A model generated the notes under the pieces. That model saw only the letters and a list, made by a program, of their open reading frames with translations, was not told the DNA's origin and searched no databases. Both the position numbers and the translations under genes were made by a program. DNA of 64,000 nucleotides from Nocardiopsis coralli (GTDB lineage Bacteria; Actinomycetota; Actinomycetes; Streptosporangiales; Streptosporangiaceae): NCBI RefSeq assembly GCF_014892575.1, contig NZ_JADBGI010000017.1, positions 1-64,000 of the forward strand. The letters run 5' to 3'. Below, in pieces: positions 5,243 through 27,563 of the stretch. Every line of letters starts with the position of its first letter. The first letter of the stretch is position 1.

Positions 5243-6121
5243 ATGTCGTGGCCTAAAGGACAGGCAGCGTTCGTCACCGGGGCAGCATCGGGGCTGGGCC
5301 TGGGCATCGCCCGGGCTCTCGTGGCCGCCGGAGCCAAGGTGGCGCTGGTCGACATCGACGAGGAGCGGGTAAACGCCGCCGCCGACGAGCTGAGGGCCAA
5401 GGGCGGAACCGTCACCACGGTCGTGTTCGACATCAGCGACCCGGCTCTCTGGAAGCAGGCCGCCGACCAGGCCGAAGAGGCGCTGGGCCCGATCTCCATC
5501 CTCTGCAACAACGCCGGCGTGAGCGGCACCGCAGCGTTCGAGAACACCCCGTACGAGACGTGGCGCTGGGTGCACAGCATCAACCTCGACGCCCAGTATC
5601 TGGGTGTCGACACCTTCCTCCCCCGCTTCAAGAAGCACGGCGGCCGGGCGCACATCATGAGCACCTCGTCCATGGCCGGGATCGTGCCCATGAAGAACAC
5701 CAGCGCGTACACGTCGTCCAAGTTCGCGAGTATCGGTTTCAACATGGTCCTGCGCGAGGAGCTCGACGAGACGGAGATCGGGGTCTCCGTGCTCTGTCCG
5801 GGCACGGTCGCGACCCGCATCGTCCAGAACGACGGAGCACTGCAGAAGAAGATGCTCGGCCGCGAGGTCGACGCCGAGTCGATCGTGCGCAACGCTGCTC
5901 AGCTCGCTGGTGGCGCGGGCCCGGACAAGGTCGGCGAGCAGGTCGTCGAGGCCATGCGGAACGATCAGTTCTGGATCGTCACCCACCGCGAATGGCTCCC
6001 GGTCGTGCAGCAGGTGCACGCGGAGACCGAACAGGCGTTCACCGAGTTCGACGGCCGCCATGGCGAAGATCCCACCGCCGTCGCCATGCTCGATGGGGGC
6101 TTCTCGGTGGCCGGCAAGTAG
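5243..6121 (+). CDS. SDR family NAD(P)-dependent oxidoreductase
   Basis: Classical short-chain dehydrogenase of 292 residues, somewhat longer than the usual 250. The Rossmann signature TGAASGLG is at residues 12-19, NNAG at about 89-92, and the catalytic Ser (about 143), Tyr156 and Lys160 lie in a YTSSK context. The start is chosen at ATG 5243 because GAGGGG lies about 7 nt upstream. An Asp after beta-2 (VDID, about 36) suggests preference for NAD over NADP. The gene stands alone, so the substrate cannot be inferred. Confidence 0.93.
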   Translation: MSWPKGQAAFVTGAASGLGLGIARALVAAGAKVALVDIDEERVNAAADELRAKGGTVTTVVFDISDPALWKQAADQAEEALGPISILCNNAGVSGTAAFENTPYETWRWVHSINLDAQYLGVDTFLPRFKKHGGRAHIMSTSSMAGIVPMKNTSAYTSSKFASIGFNMVLREELDETEIGVSVLCPGTVATRIVQNDGALQKKMLGREVDAESIVRNAAQLAGGAGPDKVGEQVVEAMRNDQFWIVTHREWLPVVQQVHAETEQAFTEFDGRHGEDPTAVAMLDGGFSVAGK

Positions 6122-6206
6122 CGGGTCCGGTTCCGCCTTCAGTTGGAAATCCGGTGCCGCGCGCTCCGTTGATCCTCTGTCGCACCGATCGAGAGGGCCC
6201 CGAAGT

Positions 6207-6271
6207 TATATAGACACCAGTCATGCTGATGCGCAGGTCTGTGTGAATCTGCGCGAAAACTGTTCTATATA
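6207..6271. promoter_or_regulatory. Nested inverted repeats, possible operator
   Basis: TATATAGA (6207-6214) is matched by TCTATATA (6264-6271). Inside lies a second pair, GCGCAG (6231-6236) and CTGCGC (6249-6254), almost concentric with the first. AT-rich arms are rare in this DNA. It could be an operator, a promoter region or a recombination site; no adjacent gene decides which. Confidence 0.45.
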
Positions 6272-6346
6272 GGTTCGAGGCGCAGGGCCCACCGGAATCA
6301 GGTTAAGGCCCGGACCGGAATCGCACTGTCCGTCCGCACAGAAAGA

Positions 6347-6372
6347 GGCTCCGCGGCTTTCGCCGCGGAGCC
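6347..6372. terminator. Hairpin terminator
   Basis: GGCTCCGCGGC and GCCGCGGAGCC form a perfect 11-bp stem with a 4-nt loop, followed by CTTCTCCCCC. It lies between the SDR (plus strand) and the convergent unknown gene at 6670-7419, so it may serve both. Confidence 0.7.
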
Positions 6373-6669
6373 CTTCTCCCCCACAATATGGCTCTGTGTC
6401 CAGGTACCCCCGGGCCTGTTTCCTGAGACAGGCCCGGGGGCCCTGGAGTCCCGGTTCACTTCCAGTGTCTGCTCGGCGTCACCTGAACATGAACCGGGGG
6501 TTTGTGGGCCGGTCGACCGTGTCACCTCGTGACCTGTGGTCTTCCGGCCTCATTCTCTTGTGGTCATGCTGTCTTGCGGGTCATGCGATCCTGCTTGGCC
6601 CTGCTGGTGCTGCTGGTACTGCGGGTCCTGCTGCTTCGCGGTGGCCGGTACCGCAGGGCTTCATCCCCC

Positions 6670-7419
6670 TCAATCCACCCTGCGGCCCGGACTCGGTCGT
6701 CCAAGGCCCGCCCCCTCCACGGGCCGCGGCACCGACCTCCACCACGGTTCGGGCATTGCCGAACCTACCTCCATTGCCTGGAGGAGCTGCCGCCATTCTA
6801 CACCGGCTTTCTCGAGGTGGCGTCCGCTTTCCACGAGCTTTCCCGGCGAGGAACCCATCCTGAGGTTCTCGGACAGGGCGTCGTACCGTTTTGTCACGAA
6901 CTGACGCCCTTCCTCGTCTTCGGCCCCCAGGACGTTCCACGAGAATGGCGGTTCCTCCCCCGCCCGGAGACGTTGGTCCAGTCGGCCGAACAGCAGATCG
7001 GCCAACATGATGAGTTGGACCTCGTTCCCCGGAAGGGGCGGTGTCAGAAGCATACTGCTGATCACACTGGCGATGGAACCCACCGAGGGCTCCTCCCCCT
7101 GGCACACGCAGAGCGTTTCTTGCTCTTTGGAGAATTCAGCGCCATCCAGCCCCATGTGCAACCCCCGATGGTGTATCAGCAGCGCACACCCGGGCTCGGG
7201 GCACGCCTCGACTTCCTGCTCTTCAGAACGAAATCCCAGGTCAGACCGGTTGATCGAGCCGACCGGGAGGCCGGACGCCGGATCGGACAAAGGGGAAGAA
7301 CTCAGACCTTCCCGGAACCGAGTTCTGGGTTGTGGCTCACCCGTTTCGGCGTTGGTGGCTTTCCACCACGAACCCTTATGGGCGATTTCTGATGGGTTAT
7401 CGAGTTCGTCATCAGGCAC
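6670..7419 (-). CDS. Hypothetical protein
   Basis: Not recognised. The 249-residue product has a natural-looking mix of charged and hydrophobic residues, unlike the low-complexity readings around it. A Cys-rich patch lies at about residues 73-110 (CPEPGC, later CVC). A predicted helical second half is rich in Leu and Glu. The start is GTG 7419 with no clear ribosome site. The overlapping readings on the other strand are repetitive and less protein-like. It abuts a repetitive region upstream. The strand is probably right and the function is unknown. Confidence 0.6.
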   Translation of the reverse strand: MPDDELDNPSEIAHKGSWWKATNAETGEPQPRTRFREGLSSSPLSDPASGLPVGSINRSDLGFRSEEQEVEACPEPGCALLIHHRGLHMGLDGAEFSKEQETLCVCQGEEPSVGSIASVISSMLLTPPLPGNEVQLIMLADLLFGRLDQRLRAGEEPPFSWNVLGAEDEEGRQFVTKRYDALSENLRMGSSPGKLVESGRHLEKAGVEWRQLLQAMEVGSAMPEPWWRSVPRPVEGAGLGRPSPGRRVD

Positions 7420-8750
7420 GGATCAGACCCCCAGACCCGGCGAAAAAATTTTCTGAGAGGCCCCGATCGAGGGCTCAGGAGGCCTTCCAGACCCCCGTTC
7501 GGCGGTGTTGGGGACCCCGGAAGCGGGGGTCCGGCCCCCGATCGCGGGGCCCGAGCACCGGTCCGCGGGGACCAGAGACCGGCCCGGAGGCACCGGAGAT
7601 CGCCCCGGAGAGGCCGAGGTTCGACCCGGAAGGACCGAAAGGGCCGAAGGGGCCGAAGGCAAGCTCGAGCGTCGGCTCGAGGGGGCCGTCGGCCAGGTCT
7701 CGTCGCCCGAAGGCCGGACCTCAGGGGACAAAGGGCGGATCTCGGGCGCCGACTCGAGCTCCGGCGCGAGATCCGACCCAGCCCCCGGGCCATGTATCGG
7801 TTTGATCACGGATGCGGGCGTCGACTCAGCCCCGGGCTCGGACGTAGTCCGGCACTCGGGCGCGGACCTGGACTCGGAGGCTGCCCCGGACTCGGACACG
7901 AGCCCGGGGTCGAGCATCGAGCTGAGCCCGCATCCGGGACGACGGACTCCAGGCTTACCCCCGGAGCCCCTTCCGGCCGCCGCTCGACGATGCTTACCTC
8001 CGGACCCAATCACCGTGGCGGTGGGATCGACCCCGGTCCCGGTCCCGACTTCGACCCCGGAACCGGGTCCGGATGCGGCGCCGGGTCCGACCTCGGCCCC
8101 ACCTTCGGAGGAGGGAGCGGTCGCGGACGCAGGTGCGCCCGGGCCGGCTGCGAGGGCAGCGGGGGCAACGGAGAGGACGCGGCGAGCGGGAGACACGTGC
8201 GACAGGTCCGACGCGTACCTGCGCACCCGGCGCGATCGCTGTCGACGCTCCTCCCGTCCCCAGTTGAGGGAGCCGAGCGAGTGGAGTGAGCTCAGCTGCC
8301 TGAGGGTGCTCAGCGGGTTCGGCAGGATCGAGGGGTTCCGCGGACTCAGAGAGCTCACTGAGCTGAGGGAGCCGAAGGCGCCGAGCGGGTGGAACGAGTT
8401 GAGGAGTTTCAGGGGTTCGGGGGTCCGGACCAGCGGCTGAGCGGGGGCCCGTTCCGGGGTCGAGCTCGCCTCACAGGGAGGAGGTGGAGGCGGAGGCTGG
8501 AGCGTAGACGGAGGCGGACTGAGGTTGGGGACAGGTGCCAACACACGTTCGGGTGGCACCGCAAGTACGCTTTTCATGTCGATCTGCCCTTACAGGTCGG
8601 CCATGGCCCCGGGGCGTGCTGCTACACGTCGCCGGGGTCCTTGCGTTCATCGGTTGCTCTGATCGTACTTCACTCTTACCTACCCGTACATAGACTTCTT
8701 GATACTGACCCACTGGGAACTGTTGACCCTCACTCAGCCATGCTCTGGAC
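7420..8750. repeat. Low-complexity intergenic stretch of degenerate short repeats
   Basis: Both strands are open over most of this 1.3 kb, which reflects repeat structure rather than genes. From 7540 to 8140 the sequence is built from variants of words such as ccggac, cggagg and ctcgggc. From 8270 to 8430 it becomes a 9-10-nt word like gagctcagc. The conceptual products are Pro/Ser/Gly-rich without any domain. A 384-residue reading on the minus strand (7423-8577) begins with a plausible ATG, so a small secreted or disordered protein cannot be wholly excluded. Confidence 0.55.
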
Positions 8751-9017
8751 ATGGACTTGCCGAGTGGCTACGGGCCTGACACGGAAATCGACGACGAGGG
8801 CATGGACCCGGTGTGGAAGCAGCTTGCTGCGATCCTCCTGGCCCGCATCGAGGCCGAGGTCTACCCGGCGGGTAGAGCCATCCCTTCACTCACACAGCTG
8901 CTGCAGGAGTTCGGGGTCTCCAGAGGAACGGTGCTGAAGGCAACCGGATACCTGGAAGATGCCGGGCTCCTGAGAGCCGTGCAGGGGCGCGGAGTGTTCG
9001 TTCTCCCGAAGCAGTGA
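8751..9017 (+). CDS. GntR-family winged-helix DNA-binding protein, mini
   Basis: An 88-residue product that consists of a GntR winged helix and nothing else. The recognition-helix segment is FGVSRGTVLKATGYLEDAG (about 54-72) and the wing is RGVFV at the C-terminus. Typical GntR regulators carry a 100-150-residue effector domain after the DNA-binding domain; it is absent here. The family resemblance to YtrA-type N-termini (VWKQLAAILLARIEAEVYP) is clear. ATG 8751 is the first start; no strong ribosome site is visible. It is probably a small DNA-binding regulator of neighbouring or conjugative functions. Confidence 0.8.
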   Translation: MDLPSGYGPDTEIDDEGMDPVWKQLAAILLARIEAEVYPAGRAIPSLTQLLQEFGVSRGTVLKATGYLEDAGLLRAVQGRGVFVLPKQ

Positions 9018-9212
9018 CCGCAGTACCTCCCGAGCGGGGGCGCTGCACTCCGGGGGTCGGTGTTCGCGGGGGCGTATCGACGACTGGGGTGACGACGTTC
9101 GACATGACAAGCGGCTCCGTTCGCTTGTCCCGGGCCCGGGGGTGCCGGTGGCACCTCCGGGCTCCTGCTTGAGGGGCTGTAGGGGGCTCACGTTACCTCA
9201 ACTTGTATGCCT

Positions 9213-9223
9213 TGTTGGCAACA
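9213..9223. promoter_or_regulatory. Palindromic operator candidate TGTTGGCAACA
   Basis: An 11-nt palindrome with one central base lies about 45 nt upstream of the second mini-GntR gene, in a locally AT-richer strip. GntR proteins commonly bind their own promoter at such sites. Autoregulation is an inference. Confidence 0.4.
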
Positions 9224-9267
9224 TTGCCCATATGTTCTCTGTTCCAAACGTTCTTAACGTGTCCGCC

Positions 9268-9522
9268 ATGGATGTTGACCGCTTCGACCCGACCCCCATC
9301 TACAAGCAGGTGGCCACGGCGCTCCGTGACCGGATCAAGTCAGGGGAGCTCAAGCCGAGAGATCCGATCCCGTCCGAGTCGAAGATGGTCGCCGACTACG
9401 ACGTCGCCAGAGACACGGCCCGCAGAGCGATCGCACTCCTTCGCTCCGAGGGCTGGGTCGTGACACTGCCGCAGCGGGGCACCTTCGTCTCCGACTCCCC
9501 CGGTACGCCGCCGAGCAGCTGA
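9268..9522 (+). CDS. GntR-family winged-helix DNA-binding protein, mini
   Basis: An 84-residue protein starting at ATG 9268 (MDVDRFDPTPIYKQ). It is a second stand-alone GntR winged helix: the DNA-binding region is YDVARDTARRAIALLRSEGW and the wing is RGTFV, followed by a short Pro/Ser tail. The reading frame extends upstream to 9142, but the segment before 9268 is not GntR-like, so the internal ATG is preferred. It lies 250 bp after a paralogue of the same size. An 11-nt palindrome is centred about 50 nt upstream. Confidence 0.8.
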   Translation: MDVDRFDPTPIYKQVATALRDRIKSGELKPRDPIPSESKMVADYDVARDTARRAIALLRSEGWVVTLPQRGTFVSDSPGTPPSS

Positions 9523-10354
9523 CCCGGACCCGGAATGTTCCGGGGGCCGTCCCGAAAAGCGTCCCGCGGGCTGCTCCTGAGGGCCTTCCGGCCCCGGTCT
9601 GCAATCCCGCTCCGGGTTCGATCCTGGGCTCCGTGCCGAGTTCCGTCGCGGGTTCTCCGCCGCGTTCCGCACCGGGCTCTTTTCGGGCTTCCGTTCCGAC
9701 CCCAGAGCACGAGCCGGAACCAGCTCCGAGGTCGGAACCAGCTCCGAGGGCGGAGCCGGCCCCGATCCAGATCCCGACACCGGTTCCGAGCCCGGGTCGC
9801 GTCCCGCCACACCTGATCCCCGTTCCTTCCACAATCCGCATTCGTTTCCACGGACCCCGCCCGGGCCTACGGGTGGGGTCCGTTGTCGTGGGGTTGGGTC
9901 CTGCAGTTCCGCCTTCGTGGCCTTCGTGGCCTTCACGGTCTCCGTAGCCTCCGTGGGCTTCGTGGGTTCCGAGACCTTCGGGGCCTTCGGGGCCTTCGAG
10001 GCTCGTCCGGCCGCGCTGGCCTCGTTCGATCTCTGGGGGTTTACGCACCATCACACTGTGTCCACACTTCTTTCTGCCCCGGTCAAGGCGGGATCCACAC
10101 CATCGAACTCCTGGTCGGACGGGCAGAAACGCGGCCCGGGGCGGTGGCCGTGCGGTGGACGTCGGGATTTTGCGAACTCCGAGCGGGAACTCATCCGACA
10201 CCGCACGCATCGGAGCTAACCAAGAAGGACAAGAAGCCAACGTCGACCAGCAAGCTAGAAACACTGTGTTGGGTTCGGCGTGGCTCGTCGAGATGACTGA
10301 CGGCCGAATGCGGACCCCTGACCCCCGGTCCGTCCTCGACACCGAGTGGGAGAC
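9523..10354. repeat. Intergenic stretch with degenerate 9-10-nt repeats
   Basis: No gene seen. The block at 9680-9790 repeats ccgagg/ggaacc-type words. The block at 9895-10015 repeats variants of ccttcgtgg about a dozen times with period 9-10. A similar block precedes the third copy of the envelope module at 26239. The 330 bp directly before the lipoprotein gene is less repetitive and should hold its promoter. Confidence 0.6.
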
Positions 10355-11482
10355 ATGGACACCAACGAAGAACACACGCCCCCTGGAACCCTCCCCCTGC
10401 GTCTGCTCGCCCTCGGCAGCGCGTTCGTGCTCCTCACAGCCGGCTGCGGGCTCGTCGGAGACAACTCCGAAAACCCCGGCGAGGGCGGAGACGACGGCGG
10501 AGAGGAGGCCGCAGGGAACGGCGAGGGCGGCTCCGAGCTTCCCGTCAGCTCGACCACCACTTCCTCCGAGTACGGACCGGACCTGGAGATCGAGGTTCGG
10601 GCACTCGAGACCGTCGGGGACGGGATCCTGCGCCTGACCGTAGGCGTGGGCAACCACGGCCACGACGACATCGGAAGTTTCCGGGTCCTGGAGAACAAGG
10701 ACATCGGCGACAAGGACATCTCCGGTATCAGCCTCCTGGATCCCTCCACCGAACTACAGCACCTGCCATTCACCCTGTCCTCCGACGGCACATGCCACTG
10801 CGGCGGCCTGGAGGACGGCGTCGAGGCCGGCACGTTCGAAGAGGCATGGGTGACCTTTCCCGCGCCCGAAGGCGGGGCCGAGTCCCTCACGGTGCTGACC
10901 CCCACCACGGCGCCCTTCCCCGCGGTCCCCGTGTCCGAGGGCGAAGAGATCCAGGACCCGGGCTTGGAGGAGCCGGTGCTCCTCGAACTGCGCGACATCT
11001 CCGACGAGATGGTCGGGGACGGGCCGGAGAACGAGGACGGCTCCGAAGGCTCGGACGAGGACTCCGATGGAGGCAACGGCGACGGCGGCGACCGCGACGG
11101 TTCCGACGGGCTGGAGCGCAACGAGACCGACGACGAGATCAGCTACGACATCTCTTCGGACGTCCTGTTCGCCACCAACAGCAGCAACCTCGGCGACGAC
11201 GCCGAACAGACCCTGGAACAGGTCGCCCAGGACATCGACGACGCCGGGATCGAGACCGTGCACATCGACGGCCACACCGACGACACCGGCAACGACGGGG
11301 TCAACGAACCGCTGTCACAGGACCGCGCCGACGCGGTCGAGGACCTGCTCGACGAGCTCGTGGACAGCAGCGGCGTCGATTACGAGTCCGAGGGGCACGG
11401 GTCCGCCGACCCCGTCTCCGACAACGACACCGACGAAGGCCGCGCGGAGAACCGCCGCGTAACCATCACCCTGGACAAGTGA
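10355..11482 (+). CDS. OmpA-domain lipoprotein with CxC domain (module copy 1)
   Basis: A predicted surface lipoprotein of 375 residues. The signal peptide ends in the lipobox LTAGC (Cys at about 30). A Gly/Glu linker follows, then a beta-rich domain (about 60-210) with the conserved CHC pair, then an acidic Asp/Gly/Ser linker, then an OmpA-like peptidoglycan-binding domain (about 255-375). The latter has a DGHTDDTG motif and an LSQDRADAV helix. OmpA domains hold proteins to the cell wall. ATG 10355 matches the paralogue start at 12362, and 20 nt upstream is also conserved. It is followed after 11 nt by its secreted partner gene. Confidence 0.88.
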   Translation: MDTNEEHTPPGTLPLRLLALGSAFVLLTAGCGLVGDNSENPGEGGDDGGEEAAGNGEGGSELPVSSTTTSSEYGPDLEIEVRALETVGDGILRLTVGVGNHGHDDIGSFRVLENKDIGDKDISGISLLDPSTELQHLPFTLSSDGTCHCGGLEDGVEAGTFEEAWVTFPAPEGGAESLTVLTPTTAPFPAVPVSEGEEIQDPGLEEPVLLELRDISDEMVGDGPENEDGSEGSDEDSDGGNGDGGDRDGSDGLERNETDDEISYDISSDVLFATNSSNLGDDAEQTLEQVAQDIDDAGIETVHIDGHTDDTGNDGVNEPLSQDRADAVEDLLDELVDSSGVDYESEGHGSADPVSDNDTDEGRAENRRVTITLDK

Positions 11483-11493
11483 GGACACCAGCG

Positions 11494-12063
11494 ATGAGCA
11501 CGCAACAGACCCCCCGCCAAGAATCCGTGCAGGGTCCGCGCCCCACCCGCACGCTCGTCCTGGGCACGGCCGCGGCCCTGGCCCTGGCCCTCGTACCCGT
11601 CAGCGCCGGGGCCACCGAATCGGACGCGCCCTCCTCCGCCGACCTGGAGGTCTTGGGCAGCTCCGAGGGGACCGGCGAGGACACCGCAGACATGGTCGCG
11701 GAGGTCAACGAAGTCTCCCGCCACCCCTCCGGCGGTTTCGTGAGCGTGGTCTACAGCATCTCCAACAACGGGACCGACGGCGTGCACATGGGAACGACGC
11801 TCGACTCGGACGGCGACTACAGCAGCTCTGCCCTCGCCGGGGTCACCCTGGCCGACCAGGGCGGAGCGACCCGCTACCACCCCTTGATGAACGCCGAGAC
11901 CGAATGCATCTGCACGGTGACGCACGGGAACTCGGCCGAGAACCGGATCGACCCCAACGAGACCTACACCTACTGGGCGCTCTACAAGGTTCCCGACGAG
12001 GTGGAGAGCGTGGACGTGGAGATCCCCGAGTTCGGCGAGATCACCGACGTGGCGATGGGCTGA
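11494..12063 (+). CDS. Secreted CxC-domain protein (module copy 1)
   Basis: A 189-residue exported protein with no recognised named family. The signal peptide is hydrophobic around residues 22-45 and ends near SAGA. The mature part carries the same pattern as the middle domain of the lipoprotein gene before it: an E-V-x-E-V-S segment, FVSVVYSISNNG, LAGVTL, RYHPL, a CIC pair, YWALYKVP and a VESVDVEIPEF tail. The start is ATG 11494 with GAGGACACC upstream, 11 nt after the lipoprotein stop. The two are probably co-transcribed and may form a complex outside the membrane; that is inference. Confidence 0.82.
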   Translation: MSTQQTPRQESVQGPRPTRTLVLGTAAALALALVPVSAGATESDAPSSADLEVLGSSEGTGEDTADMVAEVNEVSRHPSGGFVSVVYSISNNGTDGVHMGTTLDSDGDYSSSALAGVTLADQGGATRYHPLMNAETECICTVTHGNSAENRIDPNETYTYWALYKVPDEVESVDVEIPEFGEITDVAMG

Positions 12064-12070
12064 GTCGGGT

Positions 12071-12114
12071 GGAGCGCGCGCCCGAGAGCCCCGGTGCCCG
12101 GGCGCGCAGGCTCC
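12071..12114. terminator. Hairpin terminator after module copy 1
   Basis: GCGCGCCCG (12076-12084) pairs with CGGGCGCGC (12099-12107), and an outer GGAGC pairs with GCTCC. There is no U-tract, as is usual for actinobacterial hairpins. It starts 8 nt after the stop codon of the secreted partner gene. Confidence 0.6.
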
Positions 12115-12361
12115 CCCACCCCGTGTCGCGCTGCGCCCCCGGGCGGGCGCGCAGTGAACGCGGGCCCGGTCGTTCCGCCGTCCGGGGCGGCACGTGAGCC
12201 CGCCGGTACGGGATCGGGGAGCCCCTCCGAAAACTCCGAACGCGCGCTGCATCGGAGAGACAAGCGGGGAAGAGCGGCGAAAGACCGTCAGCGCACCGAA
12301 CACGGAGAACAGCCCCGACGGGCCCATGAACCCCGGTCCGTCCCCGATACGAGCGGGAGAC

Positions 12362-13483
12362 ATGGACACCAACGAAGAACACACACACTCCAGGACCACC
12401 CCCTTGCGCCTGCTCGCCCTCGGCAGCGCGTTCGTGCTCCTCACAGCCGGCTGCGGGCTCGTCGGCAACAATTCCGGGGAGTCCGGCGGGGACGAGAGCG
12501 GAGAGGCCTCCGAGAACGGCGACAACGGCGATGGAGCCGAGGGCGCCGGCGGTGGGACCGCCGAACTGCCCGTCAGCACCACCGTCGTCGCGCACGACGA
12601 CTACGAGCTCGAGCTGGAGGTGCGCGCCCTCGAACGCATCGGCGACGGGGTGCTGCGCCTGACCATGGGCGTGCACAACCACTCCGACGACGACGTGGGG
12701 ACACTGCACGGCATGTACGACCGCGACTTCGGCGGCGGGGACCTGTCCGGGATGACGCTGCTCGACGCCGAGGAGCAGAAGCACCACGTCGCGTTCTCCA
12801 CCGCGGGTGAGGACGACTGCTACTGCGGCGGGCTCGACGACGGCATCGAGGCCGGGACCGTGGAAGAGGCGTGGGTGACCTTCCCCGAGCCGACCGGGGG
12901 CGCGGAGAGCATGTCGGTGCTGACGCGTATCGCGCCGCCGTTCCACAACATCCCCATCAGCGACGGCGAGGAGACCGACCACCCCGACCTGAACGAGCCT
13001 GTGGTGCTGGACCTGCAGGAGAACGTCGACGAGCTGGCCGGCGGTGCCGGGGACGACAGCGAGGGCGACGGGGACGGCGATGGTGACAGTGACGGGGATG
13101 GCTCCGAGGGGCTGGAGCGGAGCGAGACCGACGACGAGATCAGCTACGACATCTCCTCGGACGTGCTGTTCGCCACCGACAGCGCCAACCTGAACGACGA
13201 CGCCGAGCAGTCCCTCGAGCAGGTCGCCGAGGACATCGACGACGCCGGGATCGAGACCGTGCACATCGACGGCCACACCGACAACACCGGCAACGACGCG
13301 GTGAACGAGCCGCTGTCGCAGGACCGGGCCGAGGCGGTGGAGGAGCTGCTGGCCGAGCTCGTGGACAGCGGGGACGTGGAGTGGGAGGTCGAGGGACACG
13401 GGTCGGCCGACCCCGTGGCCGAGAACGACTCCGAGGACGGGCGGGAGCAGAACCGCCGGGTGACGATCACGTTGGACAAGTGA
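12362..13483 (+). CDS. OmpA-domain lipoprotein with CxC domain (module copy 2)
   Basis: A paralogue of the lipoprotein at 10355, 373 residues, with the same order of parts. The signal peptide has a lipobox LTAGC, followed by a Gly/Asp linker, a CxC domain with a CYC pair, an acidic linker, and an OmpA domain with DGHTDNTG and LSQDRAEAV. The first 12 residues and about 20 nt of upstream DNA are nearly identical to copy 1, so this is a recent tandem duplication. A longer in-frame reading from 12194 exists, but the conserved MDTNEEHT start decides for ATG 12362. GGGAG lies just upstream. Confidence 0.88.
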   Translation: MDTNEEHTHSRTTPLRLLALGSAFVLLTAGCGLVGNNSGESGGDESGEASENGDNGDGAEGAGGGTAELPVSTTVVAHDDYELELEVRALERIGDGVLRLTMGVHNHSDDDVGTLHGMYDRDFGGGDLSGMTLLDAEEQKHHVAFSTAGEDDCYCGGLDDGIEAGTVEEAWVTFPEPTGGAESMSVLTRIAPPFHNIPISDGEETDHPDLNEPVVLDLQENVDELAGGAGDDSEGDGDGDGDSDGDGSEGLERSETDDEISYDISSDVLFATDSANLNDDAEQSLEQVAEDIDDAGIETVHIDGHTDNTGNDAVNEPLSQDRAEAVEELLAELVDSGDVEWEVEGHGSADPVAENDSEDGREQNRRVTITLDK

Positions 13484-13499
13484 GGCTCGGCTGCGTCGA

Positions 13500-18981: not shown

Positions 18982-19057
18982 GAACCATTTGTGACCTGCA
19001 CAGCCACAACTTGCAGATTTCCCGGTTACCCACCGGTAGACATGCAGGTCAGGAAGA
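18982..19057 (+). promoter_or_regulatory. CRISPR leader 1
   Basis: A 76-nt segment directly before the first repeat, beginning GAACCATTTGTGACCTG and ending GGTCAGGAAGA. The same segment precedes arrays 2 and 3 with few changes, so it is the leader end used for transcription and spacer acquisition. Confidence 0.8.
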
Positions 19058-19269
19058 GTGCTCCCCGCACGCGCGGGGGTGGTCCCGGCGCGTTCGGAAA
19101 ACGGTCGGATACCGAACGGTGCTCCCCGCACGCGCGGGGGTGGTCCCGTCCCAGCTCCAGGACCCTGAGCTCGACGAGGGTGCTCCCCGCACGCGCGGGG
19201 GTGGTCCCATCGATACTGCTGCCGGCGCGCTTCCCGGTAAGTGCTTCCCGCGCACGCGGGTTGGTCTTA
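19058..19269 (+). CRISPR. CRISPR array 1, 4 repeats and 3 spacers
   Basis: Repeats of 29 nt start at 19058, 19119, 19180 and 19241, with spacers of exactly 32 nt. The repeat runs GTGCTCCCCG...GGTGGTCCC, typical of type I-E in actinobacteria. Repeats 1-3 share a private variant of the stem (CACGCGCGG instead of CGCACGCGG). The fourth is degenerate (GTGCTTCCC, ending GGTCTTA) and closes the array, so the leader is on the left. No cas genes are in the window. The MerR gene ends 34 nt downstream. Confidence 0.95.
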
Positions 19270-19302
19270 CACGGCAGCGGTGGCTGGTGGCCAGTGCGCC
19301 TT

Positions 19303-20247
19303 TCAGGTGGCGGACGAGTCTTGGGTGGACAGCTCCATGGCCAGTTCGACACAGCGCCGTCGGGCTGGGGAGGCGTCGTAAGGCACCATGCCGATGACTT
19401 CGAGCGCGCTCATGGAGCCGACCTTCCGCCTGCCAGAGCTGGGGCCGGCCTCGTCCTGGCCGTCATCGGCGGGAGCGCCGTCATCCTCAGCAGCAGGGTG
19501 CAAAGCGTCCCAGGCGTCGAACAGGGCATCGTCCTCCTCATCCAGGCCGGATTCCTCGATGACGGCCTGCAGGGCGCTTTCGAAGGCGTGCCGCTCGGCG
19601 GCCACTTGAGTCACCCGTGGATCATCGACGGCGACACCGTCATCGAGCGCCTCCTCGGCTTCATCGATGCGGTCGGAGTCCTCCCGCAGAGAAGGATGCG
19701 TGGCCAAGGCGATGAAGCGGGAGGCCTGGACGGCCGCGCCGAGCGGGCCAAAGATCCGCTCGGTGACCAGGAGAGTGTCCAGGTCCGCCTGGCGCAAGGA
19801 GCCCTCGGGCAGGCCTTTGAGACGGTCCGTGACGAAGTCGGAGAGCAGGCCCATCCGGCTGCCTTCGGTGCGCATCCGCTGCACGGCGGTCCGCTGCCGC
19901 CGCAATTCCGCCTCCTGCTCGGCGAAGGTTTCCTCCAAGCGCTCCAGGATGCCCGCGATACCGTCTCCGCTCTCCGGACCGGCGGCAACCGTGCCGGTGG
20001 TAGCCGTGCCGGCCGTGAAGGCGTCACGGATGTCGTCGAGGGCGATCCCGGCGTCGGCCATTTTGCGGATCCACAGCAGGTGGATCATGTCCTCGTACCC
20101 GTAGCGGCGGCGGTCATCGCTGCCCCGCTCGGGCTCGGGGAGCAGGCCGATCTCGTGGTAATGGCGGATCGCCCGTGGCGTGGTGTCGGCGAAGACCGCC
20201 GCGTCCCCGATCTTGATCTGGCGGGATGGCACGAAAGACGAATGCAT
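19303..20247 (-). CDS. MerR family transcriptional regulator
   Basis: A 314-residue regulator. The MerR DNA-binding domain is at residues 10-80 (IKIGDAAVFADTTPRAIRHY, then HEIGLLPEPERGSDDRRRYG). A coiled-coil linker (about 95-125, EETFAEQEAELRRQ) leads into a long C-terminal region of unknown ligand, longer than in metal-type MerR proteins. No metal-binding Cys cluster is present. The start is ATG 20247, with AGGAAAGG about 10 nt upstream. It lies between CRISPR arrays 1 and 2 without obvious link to them. Confidence 0.87.
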   Translation of the reverse strand: MHSSFVPSRQIKIGDAAVFADTTPRAIRHYHEIGLLPEPERGSDDRRRYGYEDMIHLLWIRKMADAGIALDDIRDAFTAGTATTGTVAAGPESGDGIAGILERLEETFAEQEAELRRQRTAVQRMRTEGSRMGLLSDFVTDRLKGLPEGSLRQADLDTLLVTERIFGPLGAAVQASRFIALATHPSLREDSDRIDEAEEALDDGVAVDDPRVTQVAAERHAFESALQAVIEESGLDEEDDALFDAWDALHPAAEDDGAPADDGQDEAGPSSGRRKVGSMSALEVIGMVPYDASPARRRCVELAMELSTQDSSAT

Positions 20248-20590
20248 GAGCAGGGACCTTTCCTCAAGCGCTCAAGGGATCGGGACGTGAGTCCACCGGA
20301 CCACATGCCGCTACGGAAGGTGCAACCCCAGGCACTCCGGCCCGCTCTGCACCACGCGCAATGCGCTCGCCACCCGTGCGCTGCCTGCGCGCGGCACGCA
20401 CAAAGCACCGCACGCCGAGGCCCGGGGAACGGGAACCGGATCGGGGGTGCGCCCGCGTGCCTCGAACAGCGTGCATCGCGTTCCCTGTGCGATGGGCGAT
20501 GCGCTTGAGGCGGGCGCTCCACGTAGGCGAGTGGGTCGGCAGCCGACACGGCCTGCATACTGATTCCACAATCAACCTGAACGGCACTCA
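20248..20590. other. Gene-free stretch before CRISPR leader 2
   Basis: No gene seen. It should contain the merR promoter on its left. On its right CCTGCATACTG (about 20552) is shared with the upstream regions of the other two arrays. Confidence 0.55.
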
Positions 20591-20666
20591 GAACCACTTG
20601 TGACCTACACATCCACTTCTTGCAGATTTCCCGGGCGCTCACCGGCAGACATGCAGGCCAGGAAGA
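20591..20666 (+). promoter_or_regulatory. CRISPR leader 2
   Basis: A 76-nt leader homologous to leaders 1 and 3, beginning GAACCACTTGTGACCT. It is the most divergent of the three, with GGGCGCTCACCGG in place of GGTTACCCACCGG. Confidence 0.8.
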
Positions 20667-20818
20667 GTGCTCCCCGCGCACGCGGGGGTGGCCCCGAGAC
20701 CGGGTCGTGGTCGGATGGTCCCGGACCGTGGCTCCCCGCGCACGCGGGGGTGGCCCGCACCTCGGCGTGCCGCTGGAAGAGTTCATGCCGTGCTCCCCGC
20801 GCACGCGGGGATGGTCCC
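20667..20818 (+). CRISPR. CRISPR array 2, 3 repeats and 2 spacers
   Basis: Repeats start at 20667, 20729 and 20790, with spacers of 33 and 32 nt. The second repeat begins TGGCTCCCC instead of GTGCTCCCC. Repeats 1 and 2 end in GGCCCC/GGCCCG rather than GGTCCC. The last repeat is not degenerate, unlike those of arrays 1 and 3, so the distal end may have been deleted. No cas genes are adjacent. Confidence 0.93.
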
Positions 20819-20957
20819 TCGTCGTCCAAAGCCTGGGCTTGCTCCAGCTCGGGCACGTCCCGCATGCATGTGAAGGAAGCAGGGCGCATTCACGGGTGGC
20901 GGGTAAAAGATTGCGCCAACCACGCCAGATTGGTGCTCGGCGCGGCATCGTGGCGGT

Positions 20958-21272
20958 ATGGGCATCGAACGGAACGAACCCCATGAGTGGAGCGAGCTCT
21001 CGGTCACCGAGGCCCGCGACCACTTCTCCGAACGCGTCAATCGCGCCCACTACGGCGGCGAGATCACGTACATCACCCGTGGCCGCCGCCACCAGCGGGC
21101 CGCGGCGATCGTTCCGGCTGACTTGGTCGAGCACTACGAGCAGCTGCTGGACGAGCGCGACGCCCGCGTCGCTGCCGAGCGCTTGGCCGACAACGAGGCC
21201 GGCCGCTCGAGCACCGTGCCTTTCGATAAGGCAATGGAGGAGCTCGACTTGGCCGAAGAGCTGGGCCGGTGA
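20958..21272 (+). CDS. Phd/YefM-type antitoxin
   Basis: A 104-residue antitoxin-like protein. The Phd/YefM fold is visible as LSVTEARDHFSERVNRA, TYITRGRRHQRAAAIVP and DLVEHYEQLL. The acidic C-terminal tail (MEELDLAEEL) would wrap the toxin. It normally neutralises a RelE-type RNase and represses its own operon. The start is ATG 20958. Its stop overlaps the GTG of the toxin gene as GTGA (21269-21272), the usual coupling. The toxin is broken (next entry), leaving an orphan antitoxin. Confidence 0.88.
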   Translation: MGIERNEPHEWSELSVTEARDHFSERVNRAHYGGEITYITRGRRHQRAAAIVPADLVEHYEQLLDERDARVAAERLADNEAGRSSTVPFDKAMEELDLAEELGR

Positions 21273-21373
21273 CGGACCAGCCCTACGAGGTCTCCTTCGA
21301 TGAGCCGGTCCTCAAGCAGTTGCGCCGGCTCGACAAGCCCGTGCGGGCCCGCATCTCCCGGACAGTCCGGGAG
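21269..21373 (+). pseudogene. RelE-type toxin, cut off by a CRISPR leader-repeat segment
   Basis: The first 35 codons read as a RelE/ParE-type toxin: YEVSFDEPVLKQLRRLDKPV, then RARISRTVRE. After codon 35 the sequence changes at 21374 into 40 nt of CRISPR leader plus one repeat. All catalytic residues of RelE proteins lie beyond this point, so the product is inactive. The frame continues to 21595 through leader, repeat and unrelated sequence. Confidence 0.85.
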
Positions 21374-21442
21374 TTTCCCGGTTATCCGCCGGTAGACATG
21401 AAGGTCAGGAAGAGTGCTCCCCGCGCACGCGGGGATGGCCCC
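21374..21442 (+). CRISPR. Orphan CRISPR leader end plus single repeat
   Basis: 21374-21413 matches the last 40 nt of leader 3 with two mismatches. 21414-21442 is one full 29-nt repeat (GTGCTCCCCG...GATGGCCCC). No second repeat follows after 32 nt. It is either the residue of a fourth array or a displaced leader-repeat junction. Confidence 0.88.
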
Positions 21443-21578
21443 CTTGCCGTTGCAGTTCTGGCACGTGTCTTCCGCCCCGGAGCTTTCCGTGTCAGGGGTA
21501 ACAGGTACCGGGTTCCGGGCACCGGTGGATGGCGGACGGTGGTCGGCCGATGGCCCCGACAGCGCGAGACCACCCAGA

Positions 21579-22724
21579 TCACGTGCGGGCGATGATCAGG
21601 TAAGCCAGGTACGCCAGATACAGGCTCACCAACAACAGACCCTCCAGGCGGGTCACCCGCCTCCCGGTGCGGAAGAGCACCACCACCAGCAGCGAGACCA
21701 CGGCCATCACGATCATGTCGATGTAGAGCACCTCCGCCGAGACCGCGACCGGCACGGGGGCAACCACCACGGTCAGGCCCAGGATGAACACGATGTTGTA
21801 GATACTGGAGCCGATCAGGTTCCCGATCGCGATGGAGGCCTGCCCCCTGATGGTCGCCACGATCGAGGTGACCAGCTCGGGCGCGGAGGTACCGATCGCC
21901 ACGACCGTCAGCCCGATCAGCACGTCCGAGACCCCCAGCGCTGTGGCGATGTCGACCGCGCCGCTGACCAGCCAATCCGCCCCCAGAATCACCAGCGCGA
22001 TCCCGGCGAGCAGGAACAGTGCGTCCAGAGCGAGACGGCCCGGGCCACCGCGAGCGGGTTGTTCGGGCACGTCCGTGTCTGCGGTGTCAGCAGCTTCGTG
22101 GGCGTCATCGGGGCCACCGGTGTCGTCGGTTTCGCCGGGGCCGCCGGCATCGCCGGCTCCGGCGGTGTGGCCGGCTTCGGCGTTGTCGCCGTTACCACTG
22201 GCTCCGGCAGTGCCACCGGTTCCACGGGTGCCACTGGTGCCACCGCCCGAACTCTGGGAGGACGGCTCCACAGCGTGAGGACGTCGGGCGTTCCGCACGA
22301 TCGCGACGGTATAGGCCACCCCGATGCCCAACAGAAGCACGCCCATCGGCCAGCTGAGGCTCCCGCCCAGAGACAACAGGAACAACAGGACCGCAACCAC
22401 GGCAACAACCGGAAGGTCCAGGCGCATCATCTGACGCTGGGTGAGGATCGGGCTCAGAGCAGCGCTGATGCCCAGGATCAGCAGCAGGTTGACGATGTTG
22501 GTACCGACGATGTTGCCGGTGACCAGACCCGGGTACCCGCGCAGCGCGGCTTCGATACCGACCGCCAGCTCGGGCAGGCTGCTGCCGATCGCGACCACGG
22601 TCAGGCCGATCACCATCGGCGAGATGCGCAACAGGGCCGAGACCCCGGTGGCGCCGCGGACCAGAAGCTCTCCACCGACCACGAGCACGGCCAAGCCCGC
22701 GGCCACGATTGCGTAGCTCATCAT
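21579..22724 (-). CDS. Calcium/sodium antiporter (CaCA family)
   Basis: A 381-residue exchanger of the YrbG/CaCA family with two homologous halves. The alpha repeats are visible as VVAIGSSLPELAVG (first half) and VVAIGTSAPELVTSI (second half), each in a membrane-embedded cluster. It exchanges Ca2+ for Na+ or H+ across the cytoplasmic membrane. The halves are joined by an unusually long hydrophilic loop rich in Gly, Thr, Ala and Asp (about 21995-22270), built from degenerate repeats. Start: ATG 22724 or the adjacent ATG 22721; GGGGAGG lies 4 or 7 nt upstream. Confidence 0.9.
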   Translation of the reverse strand: MMSYAIVAAGLAVLVVGGELLVRGATGVSALLRISPMVIGLTVVAIGSSLPELAVGIEAALRGYPGLVTGNIVGTNIVNLLLILGISAALSPILTQRQMMRLDLPVVAVVAVLLFLLSLGGSLSWPMGVLLLGIGVAYTVAIVRNARRPHAVEPSSQSSGGGTSGTRGTGGTAGASGNGDNAEAGHTAGAGDAGGPGETDDTGGPDDAHEAADTADTDVPEQPARGGPGRLALDALFLLAGIALVILGADWLVSGAVDIATALGVSDVLIGLTVVAIGTSAPELVTSIVATIRGQASIAIGNLIGSSIYNIVFILGLTVVVAPVPVAVSAEVLYIDMIVMAVVSLLVVVLFRTGRRVTRLEGLLLVSLYLAYLAYLIIART

Positions 22725-23422
22725 GCGGCCTCCCCGCACCCTCGGAGCAGAGCTTTCGCGGCCGAAGGCACTGCCGCGGTTGCGGGCACGGCCGCGATTG
22801 CGGCTGCGGTGCACTGGTTGGAAAGGCCAGGAAGGCCAGAACGGGGAGGAAGCGCAGGAACACCCGGGGGGCCTGGGACCCCTGCGGCCGCTCCGGTTCC
22901 TGCGGCCCCTGCGGCTCCTGGCCGACGCCTGTGTTCCTCATCCCCTGTCTCCGGGCGACCCGGCATCGTGGCTACGGCTCGACCGGCTCGTCCTGATCGT
23001 GCGGATCTCCTGTCCGTCCCGGTTCGAGACGGCCGGCCGGTGGGCGGAGCGGTGGGCGAATCGGCAGGTCGGCCGGTGGATCGTGTCATCGTGCTGTCCA
23101 GTGGTCGCGGGCGTTGAGGCCGGGGTATCCGGGGGGTGCGGGCGATGGTCTTCAGCTCGGTCGCTGAACCGCTCGGGGTCCAGTCGCTCCGAGACTCCGA
23201 GGCTCGGAGGTCGGCGGTTCGGAAGCTCGGCAGCCCGGCAGCTCTCGTCGCTGAGAGCCGGGGGCTTGCGACCGCTGCACGACCGGCTGCTGAGATAGCG
23301 GTCGACAACTCCGAGTGCGTCAGTTGAGGCAGTCGCGGCAGCTGAGGCAGCCGAGGTGGTCGAGGTAATCGAGGCGAGCGGCAGTTGCTGCAGTTGCTGC
23401 AGCTACGTAAGAGCGTTCCGGG
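22725..23422. repeat. Gene-free stretch with degenerate repeats
   Basis: No gene is supported. Short-period repeats occur at 22850-22935 (tgcggctcctgg variants), 23190-23260 (gctcggagg variants) and 23320-23410 (gaggcagtcg changing to cagttgctg). Confidence 0.55.
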
Positions 23423-23839
23423 TCAGCTCGGATCAGGCTCGGGGAGCAAGGTCCCGAAGCACCAGAACCCGTTCTCCGGATCCCGGACGCCGTACTCCCG
23501 CTGCCCGTAGGGCATGTCCTGCGGCTCGTACCAGATCGTCGCGCCGGCCGATCTGGCGTGCTCGAAGTGCGCGTCGACGTCGTCGACGTAGACCATGACG
23601 CCCGCGTGCACGGCCGGCAATGCGCCCGGTCCAGCCATCCCCATCGAAGGCTGGGCGCGGCTGAGCATCACGAACTGGTCGGCCATGCGCAGTTGGATGT
23701 TGCCGACCTCCCCGTCAGGGCTGCGGTGGGTAGCCACCTCGGTGAAGCCGAGCGCTTCGCTCAGGAAGTCCCTGATGCGGGCGGGATCGTCGTAGAGCAG
23801 GTACGGAATGACGTTGGGCGTGTGGATATCGACGGCCAT
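23423..23839 (-). CDS. VOC family protein (glyoxalase/bleomycin-resistance fold)
   Basis: A 138-residue vicinal-oxygen-chelate protein, the normal length. Typical segments are NVIPYLLYDDPARIRDFLSE, the substrate strand VMVYVDDVDAHFEHARSAGA, and the C-terminal GQREYGVRDPENGFWCFG. The family includes glyoxalases, dioxygenases and antibiotic-binding proteins; the residues here do not settle which. ATG 23839 follows GAGGGGTG with 4-5 nt spacing. Single gene. Confidence 0.9.
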   Translation of the reverse strand: MAVDIHTPNVIPYLLYDDPARIRDFLSEALGFTEVATHRSPDGEVGNIQLRMADQFVMLSRAQPSMGMAGPGALPAVHAGVMVYVDDVDAHFEHARSAGATIWYEPQDMPYGQREYGVRDPENGFWCFGTLLPEPDPS

Positions 23840-24203
23840 GCTGCACCCCTCGGATACGGAGAGTGACTACTGACGCGGCCACCGTACAAGCGCGCGACCT
23901 GCCCGTATCGGATACTCGTCCGTTCCGGGGCCGTCCCGTTCAGGGGTGTGGCTGTCCTGCCGTCGGAGGAGGCCGCGCGGTCCGGTCTAGAGCTTCCGGA
24001 CGGGCCCCTCGAACGATCGAACGGAGACGGCGCGCTCCCCGTACGTACTGGGATGGACCCCGGCACCTCAGCTCAGCGGACACCAAGCCGGTCGTAACTA
24101 TCCAGGCGCATGCCCGTCAACCCTGGGCACCCGGAGCCCCGTGTGAAGTGACCCGGTCGCACGACCTGCATACTGGCTACAGGACTCGGATTCATGGAAC
24201 TCA
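23840..24203. other. Gene-free stretch before CRISPR leader 3
   Basis: No gene seen. CCTGCATACTG occurs at about 24165, 115 nt before the first repeat, the same distance as at array 2. Confidence 0.55.
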
Positions 24204-24279
24204 GAACCACTTGTGACCTGCATGCCCACAAGTTGCAGATTTCCCGGTTACCCGCCGGTAGACATGCAGGTCAGGAAGA
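24204..24279 (+). promoter_or_regulatory. CRISPR leader 3
   Basis: A 76-nt leader, beginning GAACCACTTGTGACCTGC and ending GTCAGGAAGA, nearly identical to leader 1 over its last 45 nt. It precedes the longest array, which is probably the most active of the three. Confidence 0.82.
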
Positions 24280-24855
24280 GTGCTCCCCGCGCACGCGGGG
24301 GTGGTCCCGGCGCCGAGTGCGCGCTGTGCGGGGTCACCGTGTGCTCCCCGCGCACGCGGGGATGGTCCCAGGGCGACGTGGCCCCGGCGTTCGCGGTGGC
24401 GGTGCTCCCCGCGCACGCGGGGATGGGCCCCCGGCATCTCCAGCTCGTGGGACTTCCAGTCGTGCTCCCCGCGCACGCGGGGGTGGTCCCCGGCATGGGG
24501 TGGGCAGCGGCACCCACCGGTGGTGCTCCCCGCGCACGCGGGGGTGGTCCCCCCGGCGTCCCGATCCCCGACGGCGCGGCCGAGTGCTCCCCGCGCACGC
24601 GGGGGTGGTCCCGGTGACCGACCCCGGGTCGGTGAAGGCGGCAAGTGCGCCCCGCGCACGCGGGGGTGGTCCTTCGGACAGGTAGTGGTAGGCGAACCAG
24701 GTCATGTGCGCCCCGCGCACGCGGGGGTGGTCCGGAACAGGGAACAGGGAAAGGAAAGGAAACTAGTGCTCCCCGCGCACGCGGGGATGGTCCTCGGGAC
24801 CACCAGTCCTTGGCGCCACGGCCCCAGTGCTCCCCGCGCACGCGGGGATTCCCCT
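24280..24855 (+). CRISPR. CRISPR array 3, 10 repeats and 9 spacers
   Basis: Repeats of 29 nt start at 24280, 24341, 24402, 24462, 24523, 24584, 24645, 24706, 24766 and 24827. Spacers are 31-32 nt. The consensus is GTGCTCCCCG...GGTGGTCCC. Position 22 varies G/A; repeats 7 and 8 share GTGCGCCCCG. The tenth repeat decays after GGGGAT (ending TCCCCT), marking the distal end. Spacer 8 is purine-rich and repetitive (gaacagggaacaggg). Targets cannot be named without a search. No cas genes follow. Confidence 0.96.
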
Positions 24856-26238: not shown

Positions 26239-27387
26239 ATGCACAAACCTGAAGGACACACGCCCGGCGAGACGCGCGAGGCCCGCGAAGCGCACGAGGC
26301 GCGCGATCCCCGCAACCCCCTCACCCCCTCCAGCGCACCCGCACCCACCCCCTCCGCCTTCCCGCACCGAACCCTCCTCCGCGGTCTCGCCGCGGCCGGC
26401 GCGCTGACCCTCGCGCTCACCGGATGCGGGCTGCTCAACGGCAACGATTCCGGCGACGGCGACGAAGAAGGCGAGAACGGCGACGCCTCCGGCGGGGGCG
26501 GCGCCCAGGAGGCGATCGAGCTCCCGGTCAGCTCCGAGACCACCTCCACCGAGTACGGCTCCGACCTCCAGGTCGAGATCCAGGCCCTGGAGCGCATCGA
26601 CGACGACCTCCTGCGCCTGAGCATCGGCGTCGGCAACGACACCCCCGAGGACATCCGGAACTTCGACCACCTCCGCGACCGCGACTACGGACGCTACGAC
26701 GCCTCCGGCGCCACCCTCCTCGACCCCGGCAGCGACTCCCAGCACATGCCGATGACCGTCTCCGGCAGCGACGGCGAGTGCTACTGCTCCGAGCTCGAGG
26801 ACCGCACGGCCGGCGCAGGCATCGTCGAACCGCTCTGGGTCGTCTTCCCCGCCCCCTCCGAGGACGTCGAGGCCATGACGGTCACCACCCCCATCACCGG
26901 CCCGTTCCACGGCGTTCCGATCACCGACGCCGACGACGCGGGCGACATCGACGTGCCCGACCTCGACGACCCGGTCGTGCACGAGCTCCTCCACGAGACC
27001 GACCAGACCGTCGAGGGTTACCAGCGCTACGAGACCGACGACGATGTCACCTACGAGCTCGCCTCCGACGTGCTCTTCGACACCGAGAGCGCCGACCTCG
27101 GCGACGAGGCCGAGGAGACCCTGACGGACGTGGCCTCGGAGATCGACTCCGTGGAGCCCGACAGCGTCACCATCGACGGCCACACCGACAACACCGGCGA
27201 CGACTCGGTCAACGAGCCCCTGTCCCTGGAGCGCGCCGAGGCCGTGGAGACCGCCCTCACCGGTCTGGTCGGCGCGGACGTGGACTACGCGGTCGACGGC
27301 CACGGTTCGGCCGATCCGGTCGCCGACAACGACACCGACGCGGGCCAGGAGCAGAACCGCCGGGTCACCGTCTCCTTCGAGAAGTGA
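26239..27387 (+). CDS. OmpA-domain lipoprotein with CxC domain (module copy 3)
   Basis: A third paralogue, 382 residues. An Arg/Pro-rich n-region (about 1-45) leads to a hydrophobic stretch and lipobox LTGC. Next are a Gly/Glu linker, the CxC domain with a CYC pair, and an OmpA domain (about 260-382) with DGHTDNTGDDSVNEPLS and QEQNRRVTV. The acidic linker before the OmpA domain is shorter than in copies 1 and 2. ATG 26239 is the first in-frame start; only a weak GGTGAAA precedes it. The N-terminus differs from copies 1 and 2, so this copy is an older duplicate. Confidence 0.87.
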   Translation: MHKPEGHTPGETREAREAHEARDPRNPLTPSSAPAPTPSAFPHRTLLRGLAAAGALTLALTGCGLLNGNDSGDGDEEGENGDASGGGGAQEAIELPVSSETTSTEYGSDLQVEIQALERIDDDLLRLSIGVGNDTPEDIRNFDHLRDRDYGRYDASGATLLDPGSDSQHMPMTVSGSDGECYCSELEDRTAGAGIVEPLWVVFPAPSEDVEAMTVTTPITGPFHGVPITDADDAGDIDVPDLDDPVVHELLHETDQTVEGYQRYETDDDVTYELASDVLFDTESADLGDEAEETLTDVASEIDSVEPDSVTIDGHTDNTGDDSVNEPLSLERAEAVETALTGLVGADVDYAVDGHGSADPVADNDTDAGQEQNRRVTVSFEK

Positions 27388-27563
27388 GCGCGGGACGTGG
27401 CCAGGGACACGGCCGAGCGCGCGGCCGGGCGTCCGGCCAGGAGCGTGGCCGGCAGCGCGGCACCCGCACGGGCGCGGGCGCGCACGCGTTCGAGCAGGTC
27501 CGGCAAGAGCCGGTCCGGCGAGGGCAACAGTCGCGGCAGATTCGACGGATGAGGGAAGAGAGC

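Follow-up and report, generated by a model that had tools for sequence, protein, structure and literature searches.

The phd-relE locus and its CRISPR junction

We analyzed a stretch of 64,000 nucleotides (the window; positions 1 to 64,000 of contig NZ_JADBGI010000017.1) from the draft genome of Nocardiopsis coralli, which comprises 6.4 Mb in 80 contigs. On the forward strand, positions 20958 to 21272 encode a full-length Phd/YefM-like antitoxin of 104 amino acids. Its match to the Pfam family PF02604 (E value of 2.8e-6; 27.5 bits) is under the gathering score of 29.8, and the protein is 71 to 82% identical to eight aligned relatives, whose genes precede RelE-type toxin genes. We found for this family both marks of a RelBE-type type II toxin-antitoxin (TA) antitoxin, i.e., a Phd/YefM (or RelB) domain and a partner toxin with the RelE fold. 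The region upstream (20902 to 20957, forward strand; GCCAACCACGCCAGATTGG) is retained in relatives, homology with two of them (G014 and G024) starting at 20902, and marks the 5' end of the cassette; it is probably the operator/promoter. Compared with that of G014, the antitoxin gene showed a dN of 0.10 and a dS of 0.43 and looks to be under constraint.

The toxin gene starts with GTG at position 21269, overlapping the antitoxin stop codon, and resembles its relatives only over codons 1 to 35 (21269 to 21373, forward strand). A toxin profile built from 15 relatives matched the window open reading frame (ORF) over positions 3 to 46 of 96 only, and no complete RelE/ParE-fold toxin with a C-terminal active site is encoded here. 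The toxins of two relatives were assigned to the RelE type by Pfam (PF05016, ParE_toxin; E values of 4.8e-12 and 3.8e-14), and one of them also matched the solved structures of Escherichia coli RelE and Mycobacterium tuberculosis Rv2866; relatives' toxins matched PF05016 and the RelE structures over nearly the full length. In E. coli RelE, the residues that carry out catalysis belong to the C-terminal half. Because this half, with the RelE active site, is gone, the window toxin would no longer be toxic. The 3' half of the gene was not found elsewhere in the 6.4-Mb genome, where just one other good RelE match was obtained, to a different gene (contig 14), and the claim of an earlier note on this DNA that the antitoxin is orphaned holds as far as homology shows. 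The remaining 35 codons are little decayed (dN of 0.14 and dS of 0.44 against G014), and therefore the break looks fairly recent.

Codon 35 (GAG) ends at position 21373, and a truncated CRISPR leader opens with TTT at 21374. Only the last 40 nt of the leader are present (21374 to 21413, forward strand), followed by a single type I-E repeat of 29 nt (21414 to 21442, forward strand). The leader end is identical to that of array 3 (24240 to 24279) at 38 of 40 positions, and leader end and repeat together are 94% identical to leader 3 and its repeat over 69 nt. Besides, a leader-repeat profile built without the solo copy matched the unit at model positions 11 to 78 (E value of 8.9e-18; 63.5 bits). 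Coordinates, alignment, and profile agree with the break as the earlier note described it, i.e., 35 toxin codons running into 40 nt of leader 3, with two mismatches, and one repeat. No second repeat was found 3' of position 21442, the best repeat-like 29-mer there matching at 15 of 29 positions, the same as in shuffled sequences, and this sequence showed no similarity to the ends of other arrays. With a 40-nt leader end and one repeat, the solo unit (21374 to 21442) falls short of an array, defined by a full leader and at least two repeats.

The solo unit and three arrays make up four CRISPR units at 18.9 to 24.9 kb of the window, all oriented alike on the forward strand. Repeat listing and leader comparison delimited array 1 (18982 to 19269), with a leader and four repeats (19058 to 19269; the last degenerate), and array 2 (20583 to 20818), with a leader and three repeats (20667 to 20818; the last ending at 20818). 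Array 3 (24196 to 24855) has the leader nearest to that of the solo unit and, depending on grouping, 9 or 10 repeats (24280 to 24855; the last degenerate). The leaders of arrays 1 to 3 are 86 to 92% alike over 106 to 114 nt with the first repeat included, and the similarity reaches about 77 to 85 nt 5' of the repeat. We assigned these arrays to type I-E on the basis of their 29-nt repeats, their leaders, and the I-E effector genes in the genome (contig 56).

The stretch following the solo repeat (21443 to 21548, forward strand) gave no convincing match in the source genome. In frame after the repeat, GAFRVRGNRYRV (about 21479 to 21514) weakly resembles the RelE motif LWRVRVGDYRV; the resemblance was equalled or exceeded by 11 of 884 scored shuffles (1,000 made), and the toxin 3' profile matched with only 1.8 to 2.9 bits. 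By its resemblance, GAFRVRGNRYRV could conceivably be a decayed remnant of the toxin 3' half. Of the downstream toxin half that the earlier note proposed to look for, nothing beyond this motif came to light. The locus is flanked by a sodium/calcium exchanger gene (21579 to 22814, reverse strand; PF01699, E value of 2.1e-61). Among the 40 genomes compared (see below), G023 is the only one besides the source genome with an exchanger at an E value of ≤1e-60; its copy is 88% identical, neither a TA nor an array lies beside it, and the flank common to both genomes starts at about 21549.

Relatives of the cassette and their proximity to CRISPR repeats

Relatives of the window appear to belong to Nocardiopsis and Streptomonospora. 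In a sample of 40 genomes of the genus, the source genome (G000) included, 25 contained an antitoxin match at an E value of ≤0.001, and a close group of nine other genomes showed 67 to 82% identity over the matched part; the TA counts exclude L034, an incomplete second copy of the antitoxin in G032. No antitoxin relatives were found in viral contigs or in plasmids. DNA similarity among the close loci extends from about 90 bp 5' of the antitoxin gene to the toxin stop codon, with little beyond. The flanks were unrelated at the cutoff, except for one locus common to G030 and G001; G028 and G009 have a common 1-kb stretch in different relative positions, and G020 and G009 showed short extensions. 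Since the flanks are unrelated outside the cassette, the pair switches location as one block of about 650 bp.

Of 39 antitoxin loci searched together with flanks of about 1.5 kb on either side, five (G000, G028, G009, G030, and G001) had CRISPR repeats next to them and the remaining 34 had none; a reversed-sequence control gave no repeat match in 126,828 bases. A repeat was located within 800 bp at four of nine independent close loci (G030 and G001 counted once), against 0.19 expected when every repeat is treated as its own place (P of about 1e-5), a value that is optimistic because the distance was set post hoc and TAs and arrays may both gather in variable regions. A further pair found later in N. 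sinuspersici (L118, the second TA of G024) stands outside these four. All array-adjacent pairs, L118 included, are codirectional with their repeats. The G028 genome yielded three repeats in all (with at most two mismatches), and two of these adjoin the TA.

As a separate observation, one CRISPR-like repeat stands in matching position in L050 and L056 (in G030 and G001), just 3' of the TA, and one of the two copies is decayed (four mismatches); the gene downstream is what we take to be a shikimate-kinase-like gene.

TA genes as general neighbors of Nocardiopsis arrays were considered and rejected. We scanned 46 small ORFs near arrays (45 selected with a stringent GC3 filter in the vicinity of 53 repeat clusters, and the L118 toxin, added by hand); only the window antitoxin and the added L118 toxin are TA genes, and two others encode DUF397 proteins. 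Because the TA genes of L118 did not pass this filter, it can miss others as well. Because the scanned neighbors were mostly non-TA genes, the association concerns this phd-relE family and not TAs generally.

Array-adjacent copies were broken in four of five genomes, whereas none of five distant copies was (Fisher's exact P of 0.048, or 0.015 with L118, from small numbers and an unplanned test). The toxin has lost its 3' half in the source genome, ends near profile position 69 of 96 in G028, and contains an early stop in G009; in G001 the antitoxin matches positions 45 to 91 of 91 only, and the G030 pair is intact. In L118, which lies between arrays, the toxin is uninterrupted over profile positions 10 to 96 and the antitoxin matches only positions 41 to 83. 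The pairs away from arrays in G014, G024, G032, G038, and G020 are complete. As the breaks differ between copies, the window truncation is one of several independent losses, and the pattern suggests that cassettes of this kind tend to lie next to arrays and to decay in that position.

Origin of the junction

We consider it probable that the junction arose by ordinary decay, through a deletion in a locus composed of an array, a TA cassette, and a further leader with its array. Such a layout is present at L118 (3909 to 5223), where a leader with five repeats, the TA, and a full 113-nt leader with two repeats follow one another in one direction; the two leader-repeat units are 93% identical over 142 nt, and the toxin gene is uninterrupted and of the RelE type. 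Thus, a simple deletion has the arrangement that it needs. The intact toxin gene that the earlier note had suggested seeking in related strains is present in the complete pairs of other relatives, and an uninterrupted one in L118. The same note had held a deletion fusing an array end to the toxin gene, if seen in relatives, to speak against its own explanation; this has become the best account through the predeletion layout of L118, with no relative carrying the identical fusion.

In the ancestor, array 2 would have been followed on the same strand by a complete phd-relE cassette and, beyond it, by a further leader with its own array. All toxin codons from 36 onward would have been lost in the deletion, together with the intergenic DNA and the 5' part of the following leader; codon 35 would thereby have been joined to leader position -40, the toxin killed, and the antitoxin orphaned. 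Recombination between repeats, by which arrays collapse, may have shrunk the last array to its one repeat, either before or after the deletion. We infer the deletion and the order of events from the truncation, the leader end, the solo repeat, the missing target-site duplication, and the full-leader layout of the relative. In G009, the TA is followed after about 180 nt by a partial leader and one repeat, and leader-bearing solo repeats also occur elsewhere (L088, position 19251; L130, position 1802); collapsed arrays are therefore not unusual. No undeleted locus was found at the same chromosomal site among the 40 genomes, and the ancestral state of the window site itself is unseen because the site in G023 has neither TA nor array.

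A computed search detected two inverted repeats at the junction (21355 to 21381, forward strand), i.e., CTCCCGGA-CAG-TCCGGGAG (21355 to 21373) and CCGGGA-GTT-TCCCGG (21367 to 21381). The breakpoint (21373/21374) sits in the loop of the latter, with six pairs formed across the junction; an inverted repeat of at least 6 bp with a loop of at most 6 was present in 1.06% of 20,000 random toxin/leader junctions. No direct microhomology was found at the junction. It is possible that the inverted repeat helped the deletion by forming a hairpin. We do not claim this hairpin as a terminator, because a scan of positions 20820 to 21620 found no promoter or terminator.

Insertion of the TA into a leader was also tried as an explanation and rejected, since the 5' part of a leader upstream of the cassette matched no better than shuffles for the three leaders tried. 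Replacement by recombination, in which gene conversion or illegitimate recombination copied a leader end and repeat from a neighboring array into the middle of the toxin gene and the 3' remnant then decayed, is unlikely. Several similar leaders lie within 6 kb as donors, and the weak in-frame motif GAFRVRGNRYRV, reached by few shuffles, would mean, if real, that the toxin 3' half partly survived, which fits replacement better than deletion. However, toxin and leader have no homology to start such an event, the 3' profile match is minimal, and the exchanger flank common with G023 leaves scant space for the end of a toxin gene. Misassembly at a multicopy leader or repeat is conceivable in a draft assembly of 80 contigs, but we regard it as very improbable: the solo leader end and repeat have substitutions of their own and are therefore a distinct copy, and the sequence following the solo repeat is single copy in the genome.

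The earlier note had proposed off-target integration by Cas1-Cas2, pointing to the leader-repeat border, which is the natural substrate of these proteins, and cas1 and cas2 do exist in the genus. In the Cas1-Cas2 reaction, a spacer of about 33 nt is inserted with duplication of the target, and leader DNA, such as the 40 nt seen here, is not known to be carried along; noncanonical off-target integration would put CRISPR-like sequence outside arrays, giving new spacer borders, and is not known to transplant a leader. An insert here would consist of 69 nt of leader and repeat sequence, which is not spacer sized, and around 21374 and 21443, where the note had suggested checking for a target-site duplication, we found neither a duplication nor direct repeats (the 5' flank ends in GGGAG and the 3' flank begins with CTTGC). 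The I-E effector operon of the source genome is complete (cas3-cse1-cse2-cas7-cas5-cas6e; contig 56, L142, positions 5484 to 13279) and stops at cas6e, with a penicillin amidase gene directly behind it on the opposite strand. Two relatives (L143 and L144) have a cas1 gene in the region of the operon, past the effector genes, and cas2 was confirmed in L144. A search of the source genome with PF01867 found no Cas1, although this model scores the I-E Cas1 proteins of the two relatives at only 35 to 43 bits. We consequently regard integration by Cas1-Cas2 as an extremely improbable origin and retain the deletion.

Known systems and further features of the genome

A Phd/YefM-like antitoxin gene overlapping that of a RelE-fold toxin is the arrangement of RelBE, YefM-YoeB, and RelFG, from which the window locus differs in that nothing of the toxin follows codon 35. 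The ectopic repeat adjoining a toxin locus also recalls CreTA as outlined in PMC9458426, where, however, the toxin CreT is an RNA whose promoter is matched by the guide; no such match was found in the window. Regulation of this kind, with the solo repeat yielding a guide that represses the TA, is almost certainly not at work, although the repeat lies directly at the TA gene pair and a complete I-E effector operon is encoded elsewhere in the genome. Over 27 scored positions, the 32 nt that follow the solo repeat matched the cassette at 16 (shuffles: mean of 14.8, maximum of 17), and the toxin is a truncated protein gene and not an RNA. Besides, no local spacer guiding to the TA was found, none of 14 scored exceeding the maximum of its own shuffles.

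In Clostridioides difficile, CRISPR arrays are reported to have type I TA modules as neighbors (Maikova et al. 2018, cited in passages of PMC6079278 and PMC6563280), a colocalization that PMC6079278 in 2018 called unreported for other bacteria. The likeness lies in a TA locus that is repeatedly found beside CRISPR arrays, and antitoxin-only loci are marked in a figure legend of PMC6079278. The C. difficile modules, as portrayed there, are of type I, with RNA antitoxins, and belong to the Clostridium group, whereas those described here are type II Phd/RelE proteins beside I-E arrays in an actinomycete. Among titles and abstract openings, we recognized no published case of a type II TA beside a CRISPR array from actinobacteria.

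Taken alone, the junction is an instance of gene decay, and what merits attention is the association between TA and arrays: a protein TA pair switches its genomic address between species yet keeps recurring beside CRISPR arrays. With an independent second example involving a different type of TA, it would become testable whether TA modules stabilize arrays or merely share landing sites with them. We offer only as speculation, and a doubtful one, that a mobile phd-relE cassette might be recruited repeatedly and codirectionally to I-E array ends in Nocardiopsis as an addiction module against array deletion, and that a break in the toxin would end this protection and let the array erode, a stage that would be frozen in the window.

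Many short arrays, almost all with a leader of their own, are interleaved with unrelated genes in the same orientation not only in the window (18982 to 24855) but also on contig 5 (10161 to 31703) and contig 25 (L059 and L060), the leaders of contig 25 being of another type. Genome-wide, more than 100 repeats are spread over many short arrays, and the effector operon has no adjacent cas1-cas2. Elsewhere in the window, about 20 copies of a 126-nt tandem repeat, 64 to 80% alike to a reference copy, occupy positions 1479 to 4289, and three diverged copies of one gene segment occur at 10534 to 13484 and 26517 to 27388, two of them close together and one about 14 kb off.
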